This document shows, in pieces, positions 2,939 through 7,215 of a stretch of DNA of 11,094 nucleotides. The notes under the pieces were generated by a model that saw nothing but the letters and a program-made list of their open reading frames with translations, was not told the origin of the DNA and ran no database searches. Position 1 is the stretch's first letter, and each line of letters opens with the position of its first letter. The translations under genes were made by a program, and so were the position numbers. The stretch is from Candidatus Woesearchaeota archaeon (GTDB taxonomy: Archaea; Nanobdellota; Nanobdellia; Woesearchaeales; UBA12501), in the NCBI GenBank assembly GCA_016203375.1, contig JACQMX010000107.1:1-11094 (forward strand), in the 5' to 3' direction.

Positions 2939-3460
2939 ATGGTAGTCCTCGAACGAACGTACACTATTCCACTGCGAAAAGAATATCAGAAAGCTCCAAT
3001 GTATAGGAGAGCAAAAAAGGCAGTGATTGCGCTACGAGAATTCTTAGTGAAACACATGAAATCAAGCGAAGTAAAGCTTGGCCCGCAGCTCAATCATGCG
3101 ATATGGGTGCGTGGCATCAAGCATCCACCGCATCATGTAAAGGTGACCGCAGTACGCACCGACGATGGTGTTGTCAAGGCGGAACTTTTCGGCGTGAAGT
3201 GGGAGGAGAAAAAGCCACAACCAACCGAGGAAAAGAAGGGCAAGAAGGCTGAGGCAGAACACGTTCATGCTGAAGGCGAAGAATATAAGCGTGAACACAA
3301 ACATGAAGAAAAGGCCGAAGCCAAAGCAGAAAAACCTGTGGTCGCGCCAAAAAAGGAAGCCGCGGAAAAGAAACCCGCAGAAAAGAAAGCTGCTTCTAAA
3401 GAAACGAAAGCGCCCGCAGATAAGAAGCCTGCGGCGAAGAAGGCAGCGAAGAAAGAATAA
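2939..3460 (+). CDS. rpl31e: Ribosomal protein L31e with long charged C-terminal tail
   Basis: Residues 1-88 are a standard L31e (L-E-R-T-Y-T-I-P-L-R, R-R-A-K-K-A-V-x-A-L-R-E-F, N-H-A-I-W-V-R-G, V-K-V-T-A-V-R). L31e sits near the peptide exit tunnel of the large subunit. Archaeal L31e is normally about 85-100 residues, but here a further 84 or so residues follow. The first half of the tail is rich in E, K and H (E-H-V-H, K-R-E-H-K-H-E-E-K). The second half is K/A/P/E repeats resembling histone H1 or nucleoid-protein tails, ending A-A-K-K-A-A-K-K-E. ATG 2939 is chosen over GTG 2930, which abuts the previous stop, because homologues begin close to the L-E-R-T motif. It is the last gene of the operon. 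Confidence 0.93.
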   Translation: MVVLERTYTIPLRKEYQKAPMYRRAKKAVIALREFLVKHMKSSEVKLGPQLNHAIWVRGIKHPPHHVKVTAVRTDDGVVKAELFGVKWEEKKPQPTEEKKGKKAEAEHVHAEGEEYKREHKHEEKAEAKAEKPVVAPKKEAAEKKPAEKKAASKETKAPADKKPAAKKAAKKE

Positions 3461-3482
3461 ATTTTGAGATTATCTGCTCCCT

Positions 3483-3977
3483 TTATTTGCTCTTTTTCTT
3501 TATCCCATTATGCACAAGCTTCTTCCAGAATATATAACCGAGGCAGAGCAAAATTGCCACATAATTTGCTATCATGAAATTTTGATTGCTCCATCTTATG
3601 CCTGGAAATGCAAAACTTGACAATGGCCAAAGGAATGGTGTTGGCAAGAAATCCTTCGCGTGCGTGGGAATATCGATAAGTATGTGCGCGAGCCATCCAT
3701 AAAGATAAAGCGGAATTCGCTTTATGGTTAGCCAAAGAATAAGGCATACCGCTCCGAAAATGACAAGACTATGCGTTACGCCATATAGCATAAAAACCCA
3801 GTCTGGTATAAGTGCTATGCTGAATTGCCGAAAGGCATAGCCATTCAAGACGTGATAGCCGGAGTAAATACCCCAGGAGAATACATCTGGTAATACGCCT
3901 GCAAGCACTGCTTTGCCAACCACTTTTGTCCTGTGGAAAATGATATAATTCCAAAGGAAATGGGCGAAGATGTCCAT
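3483..3977 (-). CDS. YdjM-like predicted membrane-bound metal-dependent hydrolase
   Basis: This 164-aa protein has the layout of the YdjM / LexA-binding inner-membrane hydrolase family (DUF457-type), for which no reaction is firmly known. It shows an early His (D-I-F-A-H-F-L-W), H15-R16, P30-D31, T69-H70-S71, and A97-H98-I-L-I-D102, then T105-H106. These His/Asp residues are the family's likely metal ligands. Hydrophobic spans lie near 61-85, 90-103 and 135-152, and the C-terminus is lysine-rich. The ATG at 3977 is preferred to the upstream in-frame ATG at 4043, because a TATA box (3999-4008) lies 26 nt before it and the hydrolase pattern begins there, which implies a leaderless mRNA. It converges with L31e and diverges from cbf5. 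Confidence 0.72.
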   Translation of the reverse strand: MDIFAHFLWNYIIFHRTKVVGKAVLAGVLPDVFSWGIYSGYHVLNGYAFRQFSIALIPDWVFMLYGVTHSLVIFGAVCLILWLTIKRIPLYLYGWLAHILIDIPTHAKDFLPTPFLWPLSSFAFPGIRWSNQNFMIANYVAILLCLGYIFWKKLVHNGIKKKSK

Positions 3978-3998
3978 TATAGTCCCAGAAGAAACGTT

Positions 3999-4008
3999 GT
4001 ATAAAAGC
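3999..4008 (-). promoter_or_regulatory. TATA box of the YdjM-like gene
   Basis: The minus strand reads GCTTTTATAC, centred 26 nt before ATG 3977. It fixes the start codon choice and places the nested inverted repeat at 4047-4163 upstream of, not within, this transcript. Confidence 0.55.
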
Positions 4009-4046
4009 ATTTCTATACAGCCATATTGAAAAGTTACTACCATAAC

Positions 4047-4163
4047 AGGCCGCCCGCCGCGTCTTCTGTTGTCTTATCATACTCTTTTGTCTCCCCCCTC
4101 TTTCAGGGGGAGACAAAAGAAAGAATTGCTAACAAAGAAATAATGGAGAGCGGCGGGCGGCTT
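4047..4163. repeat. Nested inverted repeat (palindromic element) in the divergent intergenic region
   Basis: Outer arms: GCCGCCCGCCGC at 4049-4060 is the perfect complement of GCGGCGGGCGGC at 4150-4161, extendable by a G-T and an A-T pair at 4047-4048 with 4162-4163. Inside them is a perfect 14-bp hairpin: CTTTTGTCTCCCCC at 4084-4097 with GGGGGAGACAAAAG at 4106-4119, around an 8-base loop. The outer arms are pure G+C in a window of moderate GC. There is no T-run after the stem on either strand, so it does not look like a terminator. It lies between two divergent promoters, so neither flanking mRNA should include it. A small mobile palindrome, an independent structured RNA, or a protein-binding site are the candidates. 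Confidence 0.8.
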
Positions 4164-4223
4164 CCAAACCAAACCTTATAATAACACTTTCTACACAAAA
4201 CCTTATTAAACACCTAGCGTTTT

Positions 4224-4233
4224 CTAATATAAC
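4224..4233 (+). promoter_or_regulatory. TATA box of cbf5
   Basis: CTAATATAAC is centred about 25 nt before ATG 4253, the spacing expected of a leaderless archaeal gene. Another AT-rich block (CCTTATTAAAC, from 4201) could be a second, more distant promoter. Confidence 0.5.
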
Positions 4234-4252
4234 CCATAACTGAGTGTGTACC

Positions 4253-5260
4253 ATGAGTGAACCAAAAGAGAATCTCTTACCTTTTGAACGTATCAAGCGC
4301 GAGGTATTTGTACGCCGAGAAGCGGAAACCTCGCCAAAGTACGGCCTCAAGCCAGAAGATCGTACTACCGAAGACCTTATCCAATATGGCGTTGTGAATA
4401 TTGACAAGCCTCGCGGTCCAAGCAGCCATCAGATTTCTGCGTATGTGCAGCAGATTCTTGGCTTAACAAAATCAGGACACTCTGGCACGCTCGATCCGCA
4501 CGTTACTGGTGTACTTCCTATTGCTATAGGCAAGGCGACAAAGGTTGTCCAAGCCTTGCTGACTGCTGGAAAAGAGTATGTTTGCATCATGCATTTGCAT
4601 AAGGAAGTTGATGAAGCAAAGCTTCGCGCCGTGTGCAATGAATTTGTTGGACGAATAAAACAGCTTCCTCCAATAAAATCTGCGGTCAAGCGAGAAGAGC
4701 GTTTCAGAAAAATCTATTATCTTGTCATTATCGAAATTGATGAAAAAGATGTTTTCTTTCGAGTTGGCTGTCAAGCGGGGACGTACATACGAAAACTTTG
4801 CCATGATATCGGCGTAAAGCTCGGCACGGGCGCGCACATGGCGGAGCTGCGCCGAACAAAAGCAGGACCATTCAATGAATCAACAAATCTCATTACCCTC
4901 CAAGATCTGCAGGATGCCTTCTGGTATTACCAAAACGAGAAAGACGATTCGTATATTCGAAAGCGCGTTTTACAGATAGAAAAGGCAGTCGAGCACCTTC
5001 CCAAAGTGTGGGTGATCGACACTGCTGTTAACACTATCTGCCATGGAGCAAATCTTAAAATACCCGGCATCAGCAAAGTGGAATCAGACATTCAAGTTGA
5101 CGAGCTTGTTGCAGTTATGACGCTTAAGAATGAGCTCATTGCGCTTGGTCAAGCGAAGATGATATCAAAGGATATGGTCAAGCTGGAGAAAGGCATTGCC
5201 GTGCGCGTGGATCGTGTCCTTATGGAAAGAAATACGTATCCGAAGATTGACAAGATTTAA
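4253..5260 (+). CDS. cbf5: Cbf5, tRNA/rRNA pseudouridine synthase
   Basis: Cbf5 is the catalytic subunit of the archaeal H/ACA ribonucleoprotein. With Nop10, Gar1 and L7Ae it isomerises uridine to pseudouridine at sites set by guide RNAs, and it can also modify tRNA U55. The protein is 335 aa, the usual size. The TruB core carries G-V-V-N-I-D-K-P near 46-53 and the catalytic motif G-H-S-G-T-L-D-P, with D81 as the nucleophile. It also shows L-P-P-I-K-S-A-V (138-145) and the A-G-T-Y-I-R-K-L segment (175-182). A PUA domain spans roughly 250-325 and binds the ACA end of the guide. ATG 4253 is preferred to GTG 4244 because of TATA spacing. It stands alone here rather than next to L14e/cmk as in many archaea. 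Confidence 0.95.
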   Translation: MSEPKENLLPFERIKREVFVRREAETSPKYGLKPEDRTTEDLIQYGVVNIDKPRGPSSHQISAYVQQILGLTKSGHSGTLDPHVTGVLPIAIGKATKVVQALLTAGKEYVCIMHLHKEVDEAKLRAVCNEFVGRIKQLPPIKSAVKREERFRKIYYLVIIEIDEKDVFFRVGCQAGTYIRKLCHDIGVKLGTGAHMAELRRTKAGPFNESTNLITLQDLQDAFWYYQNEKDDSYIRKRVLQIEKAVEHLPKVWVIDTAVNTICHGANLKIPGISKVESDIQVDELVAVMTLKNELIALGQAKMISKDMVKLEKGIAVRVDRVLMERNTYPKIDKI

Positions 5261-5306: not shown

Positions 5307-5879
5307 CTATACTCCTGACATCTTTTTTAGAGAACTTTCTATAGCTGGCGCGTAGGTTTCAAGCACATCGGCAAGATCCTTCTCTTTTGCTACAAAACGA
5401 TGAAGAGATTCTGATCTGCCTTCCATCACTTCTGGATAGGTTCTGGCGTAATAACCACCCAATGCCACAAGCCCTGATAAAAATGAAACAACAAGATGTC
5501 CAAGAGCTCCGCGATGGTTATCGGCCATCGCAGCATCAAGACTGTTAAAAAGAGCATAACCTGCTACAACTCTCCAAATGCACTCTGAAAGCGATGGTTC
5601 CGTTGCAGTATTTTTGAAAAGCTTTCTTGTAGCTTTAACCTGAAGATACGCGTTAACCTCTCGACGAATATCTGGGAGAAGTAGTGTTTCTCTTTCTTCA
5701 TGCGGCAGAACATAGTAATTATGGAGCAGGTTGAGAACGCCAAAAGAATCACTCAATTGTTCCTTCCTGCTCTCTTTATCGTTGACTATTAATTGATGAT
5801 ATCGAATCATCTCCTCAATCGTATCTCTTACTTTGCTTGGTGCGATTTCAACCTCCAGAAATGTTGTGTTTGTCATCAT
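5307..5879 (-). CDS. Unknown 190-aa protein, coupled to DUF357
   Basis: I do not recognise a family. The sequence reads as mostly helical, with a charged N-terminal half (for example I-E-E-M-I-R-Y-H, then E-E-R-E-T). A conspicuous N-H-R-G-A-L-G-H segment follows (121-128), then a hydrophobic glycine-containing stretch (L-V-V-S-F-L-S-G-L-V-A-L-G-G, 129-142) that may be a buried helix or a single membrane segment. There is no signal peptide. Its ATG overlaps the stop of the DUF357 gene by 4 nt (ATGA), so the two are co-transcribed and probably translationally coupled, which suggests related functions. A second ATG follows directly (M2). It ends in TAG, with TAA four codons later. Confidence 0.75.
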   Translation of the reverse strand: MMTNTTFLEVEIAPSKVRDTIEEMIRYHQLIVNDKESRKEQLSDSFGVLNLLHNYYVLPHEERETLLLPDIRREVNAYLQVKATRKLFKNTATEPSLSECIWRVVAGYALFNSLDAAMADNHRGALGHLVVSFLSGLVALGGYYARTYPEVMEGRSESLHRFVAKEKDLADVLETYAPAIESSLKKMSGV

Positions 5880-6166
5880 TCATCATCCACAGTAAACAAT
5901 TTACTATCCTTCACCTGATACACACCCAATCGCGCTCCGCAATCGAGCCATCCATGTGCATAATTAAGGCAAGCGAACGCGTTCACTTCCTCCCCTTTCT
6001 TGTGGAAGTGCAGCGCGTCGTCATAATACCGTTGTGCCATGTCAAGAATAATCGCTGCATCCTCTTCTCTGTTTTTTGCCTTTGGTGCTTTCTTGGCCAT
6101 AGCGAGAGCTTCCTTTGTCAAGGCAAAATAATGTTCAAGTCGTTTTGGCGGAATGCTCGCGTCCAT
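5876..6166 (-). CDS. DUF357 family protein
   Basis: This 96-aa protein matches DUF357, a family of short archaeal helical proteins of unknown function. The diagnostic part is A-Q-R-Y-Y-D-D-A-L-H-F-H-K-K-G-E-E (44-60), then N-A-F-A-C-L-N-Y-A-H-G-W-L-D (62-75) and G-A-R-L-G. Length is normal. The start ATG 6166 has no Shine-Dalgarno, but a TATA-like CCTTTTTAAC lies about 25 nt upstream (6187-6197), overlapping the end of rpoK, so it may have its own leaderless transcript besides being near the end of the exosome operon. It overlaps the following 190-aa gene by ATGA. Confidence 0.85.
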   Translation of the reverse strand: MDASIPPKRLEHYFALTKEALAMAKKAPKAKNREEDAAIILDMAQRYYDDALHFHKKGEEVNAFACLNYAHGWLDCGARLGVYQVKDSKLFTVDDE

Positions 6167-6197: not shown

Positions 6198-6413
6198 TTA
6201 TTGCTCTGGCTTTGGCGGGGTACGCCTTACCGTCATGGGAATAATACCTTCCTCGAACTCTCGCTACGCGATATCAAGCGGGCTGTATCGCATTTGCTTG
6301 AGCTCTTCCTCACTGAATTTAATAAGGGATGGAGCTCCCATCGCGATTTGCATGGCGCGCGCGCCAAGCATCCTTGCCTTTTCGTATTTTGTGTATTTTT
6401 CGCCTTTTTCCAT
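6198..6413 (-). CDS. rpoK: RNA polymerase subunit K (Rpb6/omega homologue), frame interrupted by TAG
   Basis: RpoK stabilises assembly of the largest polymerase subunit. From ATG 6413 the frame gives [24 protein letters not shown] (8-31), the core signature of RpoK/Rpb6, and then P-L-D-I-A. A TAG at 6264-6266 interrupts it after residue 49. In the same frame the sequence continues [21 protein letters not shown] to TAA at 6198-6200. That continuation is the expected RpoK C-terminus (compare E-F-x-x-G-x-(L/I)-P-I-T-(I/V)-R in archaeal homologues), giving 71 codons in total, a normal size. The start is fixed by GGTGAT right after the rrp42 stop. Either the TAG is decoded, or it is a mutation or base-call error, or the protein is truncated to 49 aa. 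Confidence 0.88.
6264..6266 (-). other. In-frame TAG codon inside rpoK
   Basis: The TAG sits between conserved P-L-D-I-A and R-E-F-E-E-G. Homologues have a variable residue here (often E, I or L), and GAG to TAG would be one base change. It lies at the centre of a short perfect inverted repeat (TCGC-GTA-GCGA, 6261-6271). Confidence 0.85.
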
Positions 6414-6423
6414 TAGTATCACC

Positions 6424-7215
6424 TTATGCCTTGAGGCATTTGCGAAGCTCTGCTGATTTTTGCAAGCCGAGCTCCACCATTTGCTTAATCTCGTCGAGTG
6501 TGAGTTGGCCATCGCCGCCTTTTTGTAAGGCGCAGAGCATGCCACCCTGGGTTGTCGTTACCGTCAGTCGAACATCAAACGTTCTTTCTTCGACAGGGGA
6601 CGGGTCTACCAATAAATTCTTGCCAATCTTGTAGACAGTGACCGCAATAGGAAGCTTTGTCAAGGGAAGCTTCTGCTTCGTCTTCTGGCGATAATCAAGC
6701 TCGGTGCCATCATAATGAGGGAATACGGCGTCTTGAAGCGCCGCCAACGCGGCGAGGCTTGAGGCGTCCAGCAGATTCCCATCATCATTGACCGTGCAGA
6801 TGTCGATCGAAACAATCCAAACTTTCTCGCCAGCTTTAATACACAGCTTTTTCGTGTCAATCGCCTTGGCTTCTCGAATGCCGCGATCGACGACTCGAGC
6901 AAGTTCGATTGATTGTACATCCGGAGGTCCCGCCTCGAATTCTGGCGATGCCATGGGAAGCAGTTCAGCACCAACCATAAGCGATCCATCTTCAGGCATG
7001 TCTGGATACGGCTCACTGATAAACAACTTTACTCCAGCGAGTACTTCCGTTTCGCCGATCTTCACGCGCGCTGAGCCTTCAGCGGTTTTGGAAATGCCAT
7101 ATTCAACCTTGACGGGGCGCCACTCGTCTAGTTTTCTGCCGTCAAATCTGATGCCTTTGTTGAGCGCGTTTGTCAGATGTTGCTGCATGGTGTCATTAAG
7201 AAGGGAAGCGCTCAT
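6424..7215 (-). CDS. rrp42: Exosome subunit Rrp42
   Basis: Rrp42 is the RNase PH-like, non-catalytic partner of Rrp41 in the hexameric ring of the archaeal exosome, which degrades and tails RNA from the 3' end. The 263-aa protein shows the family's R-F-D-G-R-K start (23-28), [19 protein letters not shown] (45-63), and V-D-R-G-I-R-E-A (109-116). It then has [17 protein letters not shown] (144-160), and the [12 protein letters not shown] segment near residues 220-232. Its ATG overlaps the rrp41 stop (ATGA) and is preceded by GGAGGTGA within rrp41, so the two are translationally coupled. Length is typical. Confidence 0.95.

Follow-up and report, generated by a model that had tools for sequence, protein, structure and literature searches.

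The rpoK gene of this woesearchaeal contig is interrupted by an in-frame TAG, and we infer that the interruption very probably belongs to the draft consensus and not to a mutation fixed in the lineage. Four observations favor a lone nonsense base of that consensus: the relatives compared have a sense codon at this position, TAG is an ordinary stop in the genome, the release factor aRF1 is intact, and a second, unrelated gene of the assembly carries a nonsense codon of its own.

Under this explanation the gene would be an ordinary single archaeal rpoK, one codon of which happens to read TAG in a draft metagenome-type consensus. The nonsense base would be an assembly or sequencing error, or else the allele of a rare strain taken up by the assembler. 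The working rpoK of the population would have a sense codon at codon 50.

An in-frame TAG in the only rpoK found

The window, meaning the whole stretch of 11,094 nucleotides that was analyzed, is contig C83 of a 71% complete assembly with 118 contigs and a total of 663,514 bases. Read from 6413 down to 6198, the rpoK frame encodes 49 residues, TAG, 21 residues and TAA (Table 1). The earlier note had described the same arrangement, leaving the strand (minus) unstated. Because TAG occupies codon 50 of 71, this rpoK has no open frame that continues across the conserved C-terminal part. Translated through the TAG, the gene matches the Pfam family Rpb6 (PF01192) at 35.3 bits (cut-off 26), and the match spans residues 8–59, across the stop. 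A genome search of the assembly returned a single Rpb6 match, rpoK itself, at 34.6 bits. The earlier note had raised the prospect of an intact second rpoK elsewhere in the genome; none was found in the 118 contigs, which represent a 71% complete genome.

Table 1. Features at and around the interrupted rpoK gene of the window
Feature	Position	Strand	Basis or remark
rpoK (Rpo6) reading frame	6198..6413	minus	71 codons, TAG at codon 50, then TAA; Rpb6 domain match
In-frame TAG, codon 50 of rpoK	6264..6266	minus	ORF reading
21 codons 3' of TAG, matching the conserved RpoK C-terminus	6201..6263	minus	Domain match, alignment, identity counts
Small inverted repeat TCGC-GTA-GCGA around TAG	6261..6271	strand-neutral	Within chance expectation
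Upstream neighbor, RNase PH family (Rrp42-like exosome) gene, intact	6424..7215	minus	Pfam and ORF listing
Downstream neighbor, DUF357 gene, intact	5876..6166	minus	Pfam and ORF listing

Beyond these features, a 190-aa protein with no Pfam match is encoded at 5307–5879 on the minus strand and overlaps the end of the DUF357 gene that adjoins rpoK. Window frames outside the Pfam check carry presumptive names.

RpoK sequence continues beyond the stop, and the relatives compared have a sense codon in its place

As judged from sequence, the 21 codons after the TAG are real RpoK and not a chance open stretch, because the Rpb6 match crosses the TAG and because identity to P0002, which is the nearest protein in the database (83% identical across the full query), is similar on both sides, at 41 of 49 residues before the TAG and 18 of 21 after it. 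Invariant residues of the RpoK alignment are likewise present on both sides. Identity is somewhat lower after the TAG for P0003 (39 of 49 before, 13 of 21 after) and P0004 (40 of 49 before, 13 of 21 after), and it is mainly the variable tail that accounts for the drop. Over the first 14 residues that follow the TAG, identical positions number 14 in P0002, 11 in P0003 and 10 in P0004. The Rpb6 match and the retained identity support the earlier view that the C-terminus is, or was until recently, translated. With no clear decay 3' of the stop, the stop is either new or absent from cells altogether.

Among the genes compared, the stop at codon 50 is private to this one. Across 119 rpoK loci (108 distinct), it occurs only in the window's own copy; the loci named within this comparison are the best 80 of 390 relatives from a contig scan with alignment A1. 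The other 107 distinct genes encode K (73), L (16), M (7), E (4), I (3), T (2) or R (2) at this codon. A contig scan with alignment A2 gave zero confirmed relatives. Database homologues other than the gene's own entry agree, with a sense residue at codon 50 in all 23 (18 in alignment A1, five read separately).

Genomes sampled by relatedness give the same picture. Among the 60 nearest, own genome included, 56 have an rpoK match; these make 58 rows, and the 57 matches other than the window's show no internal stop. Nine genomes besides its own belong to the same family, and all eight that have rpoK encode Lys at codon 50. The earlier note had stated that a sense codon at this site in sister genomes would refute its finding; such codons are present at the level of the family and beyond, the family being the closest rank that the comparison set reaches. 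Order-wide, 328 of 352 genomes have an rpoK match. Two others among the order-wide matches listed were flagged for a TAA, and inspection of both loci placed the TAA before the start codon.

TAG is an ordinary stop codon in this genome

We assessed stop usage in 41 of the 118 contigs (255,923 bases), in which 237 ORFs of at least 100 aa were called mechanically. TAG ends 46 of these ORFs, TAA 127 and TGA 64. For ORFs with a closed extension, the sequence from the stop to the next start codon scores as non-coding after all three stops, with per-codon values of −0.096 for TAG (45 ORFs), −0.053 for TAA (120) and −0.082 for TGA (63). In-frame extensions have a median length of 16 codons after TAG, 11.5 after TAA and 8 after TGA. 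An earlier scoring of whole in-frame extensions, over 21 contigs, had given mean values per codon of 0.176 for TAG, 0.103 for TAA and −0.076 for TGA. The positive values arose because some long extensions enter the next gene, and scoring was therefore limited to the stretch between stop and next start.

Of 14 extensions judged by eye, only that of locus L060, described below, resembled one protein cut by a stop, and the long extensions after TAG started with a next gene. Ten frames from suspicious neighbor pairs were compared with Pfam; eight matched at E ≤ 0.01 (one under its family's cut-off), two had no match, and each adjacent frame seemed to be a gene of its own. In the window, five of the 20 listed frames end in TAG, including the gene for a proteasome subunit. 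General reassignment of TAG to sense can be excluded, given how many ORFs end in TAG across the 41 contigs and the non-coding sequence that follows them.

Two pairs of frames deserve mention in their own right. On contig C35 (L067; minus strand, 10619–13696 plus the following frame), adjacent frames of 1034 and 907 codons flank a single TAG. They are probably separate genes, since the second begins with GTG and what resembles a signal peptide. On contig C60 (L072; plus strand), each of the overlapping frames at 1–741 and 593–1309 has a match to 2OG-Fe(II) oxygenase families close to its own C-terminus; the two are probably tandem paralogues.

The factor that reads TAG as a stop is also intact. 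The aRF1 gene of the assembly has no internal stop, and the NIKS, YxCxxxF and GGQ motifs can be read in it.

A second gene is interrupted by a different stop codon

Codon 110 of a 573-codon frame on contig C1 (L060; minus strand, 3422–5143) is an in-frame TAA. Three homologues of 564–576 aa, 52–53% identical over 92–98% of the query, are uninterrupted, and all three have Tyr at this codon; a genome search with one of them reported the same single TAA. This gene is unrelated to rpoK and its stop codon differs, so nonsense changes in the assembly are not specific to TAG or to rpoK. Such a TAA is easier to reconcile with nonsense changes scattered over a draft consensus, or with real mutations, than with TAG-specific decoding. 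Scans of 21 sequences, and then of the 41 contigs, found no further clearly interrupted gene, with the proviso that such scans are blind to short interrupted ends without homology, rpoK's own among them. Near the L060 gene, a frame at C1:2772–3380 is a weak relative, with 24% identity to P0029.

Pyrrolysine machinery and suppressor tRNAs

Decoding by pyrrolysine would call for a PylS synthetase, and no match to the PylS C-terminal domain exceeds its curated cut-off in any of 60 genomes, own included. In its own genome (71% complete) the best match to this family reaches 37.2 bits against a cut-off of 178.15, and the PylS N-terminal family has no match there. Matches below the C-terminal cut-off occur in 51 of the 60 genomes, own included. 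We take these for other class II synthetases, because 13 of 14 control genomes match as well and only one of the 14 does so over the cut-off.

An Rfam search of the assembly located tRNAs at 15 places at E 0.001, 14 of them over cut-off, and at 17 places at E 5. ARAGORN, applied to the tRNA loci and sampled contigs both with introns allowed and without, found no CTA anticodon in this clearly partial tRNA set. Two weak places on contig C47 gave no clear call, and a place on C82 was called as Cys (GCA) under relaxed settings alone. On contigs C19 and C18 (L055 and L056), it read a tRNA-Thr (TGT) and a tRNA-Val (GAC) with 31-nt introns at the same position.

Weighing decoding, readthrough, truncation and consensus error

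The conserved, open frame beyond the TAG is what one would expect if the codon were decoded as an amino acid, be it as pyrrolysine, through some other amber suppressor tRNA or under a reassigned code. The longer median extension after TAG than after TAA or TGA points the same way, and a suppressor tRNA could be missing from the data because the assembly is 71% complete, with 14 tRNA matches over cut-off. We nevertheless consider decoding very improbable: TAG ends many ORFs and is followed by non-coding sequence up to the next start, long post-TAG extensions open with a next gene, aRF1 is intact, neither a PylS over cut-off nor a CUA tRNA turned up in the available 71%, no relative examined has the stop, and the other interrupted gene carries TAA. 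Pyrrolysine or a suppressor tRNA, both proposed in the earlier note, therefore goes unsupported. Programmed readthrough would yield a 49-aa and a 71-aa RpoK from one gene, and the inverted repeat that encloses the TAG, together with the conserved extension behind it, speaks for this. The repeat does exist, but it does not exceed chance: the window has one site of the form TCGC-NNN-GCGA, shuffled windows average 0.35, and 59 of 200 shuffles have one or more. Nor does the 93-nt stretch from 24 nt before the TAG through the TAA fold better than shuffled sequence (−20.9 kcal/mol, z −0.62; 53 of 200 shuffles at least as good), leaving no local structure beyond chance. A programmed site would also be expected to persist in relatives, and codon 50 is a sense codon in all 107 of the other distinct rpoK genes. 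We give this proposal hardly any credence. It is equally improbable that natural suppression, or termination that leaks, lets rpoK be expressed through its amber codon, with readthrough limiting the full-length subunit and TAG elsewhere serving as a stop.

A real nonsense mutation fixed in the lineage, such that a 49-aa RpoK is made or the polymerase works without the subunit's C-terminus, is unlikely. This is the sole rpoK found in the assembly, and the L060 gene is interrupted too, as fixed mutation would allow. Some tolerance of shortening is suggested by a passage in PMC13257274 that reports Rpo6 forms of 52–55 aa, described as being without the C-terminal beta-finger, in Euryarchaeota and Nanobdellati. 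However, a short solved Rpo6 chain of 57 aa (entries including 8cro, seen in one alignment) is without six central positions and keeps EFEKGVIPITVIRP, the very stretch that a cut at residue 49 removes. Any fixed mutation would also have to be very recent, since no decay relative to P0002 is seen in the codons beyond the TAG, and it would stand against an order in which nearly all genomes have an rpoK match. An error or rare-strain allele in the consensus faces counterpoints of its own. The TAG lies mid-contig, away from contig ends. The other 19 listed frames of the window have no in-frame stop, the Rpb2 domain is intact, and the scan of 41 contigs showed one other clearly interrupted gene; the consensus is therefore not full of errors. 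Overall, we rank a consensus error or rare-strain allele as most likely and a fixed mutation second, with decoding and programmed readthrough each at a very low probability. From the earlier list of options, a base-call error and a mutation in one strain thus stay as the leading readings, and amber decoding and readthrough are not supported.

Meaning and comparison with known systems

Were the TAG decoded, an amber codon would control a core transcription gene. Such a new way of reading genes is not favored here, and a sequence error or private mutation is most likely instead. The case carries a caution, in that a single nonsense base in a fragmented draft genome can make a core gene appear truncated. 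Most of the exotic readings fall away once the use of stop codons, the release factor and related genomes have been checked.

Pyrrolysine decoding by PylS and PylT resembles the present case in that a conserved gene contains an in-frame TAG. It differs in that no PylS over cut-off and no CUA tRNA was found and TAG serves here as an ordinary stop. Pyrrolysine usually occurs in methylamine methyltransferase genes, and rpoK is not among them. Compared with archaeal RpoK (Rpo6; PF01192), the gene, read through the TAG, is homologous over its full length and differs at codon 50, where no other rpoK compared has a stop. The remaining comparison class is that of sporadic nonsense errors and private mutations in draft metagenome assemblies. 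Our search for literature on premature stops in metagenome assemblies found no paper; the likeness lies in the features of the case itself, with a stop in one genome only, a fragmented assembly, and a second, unrelated example inside it.
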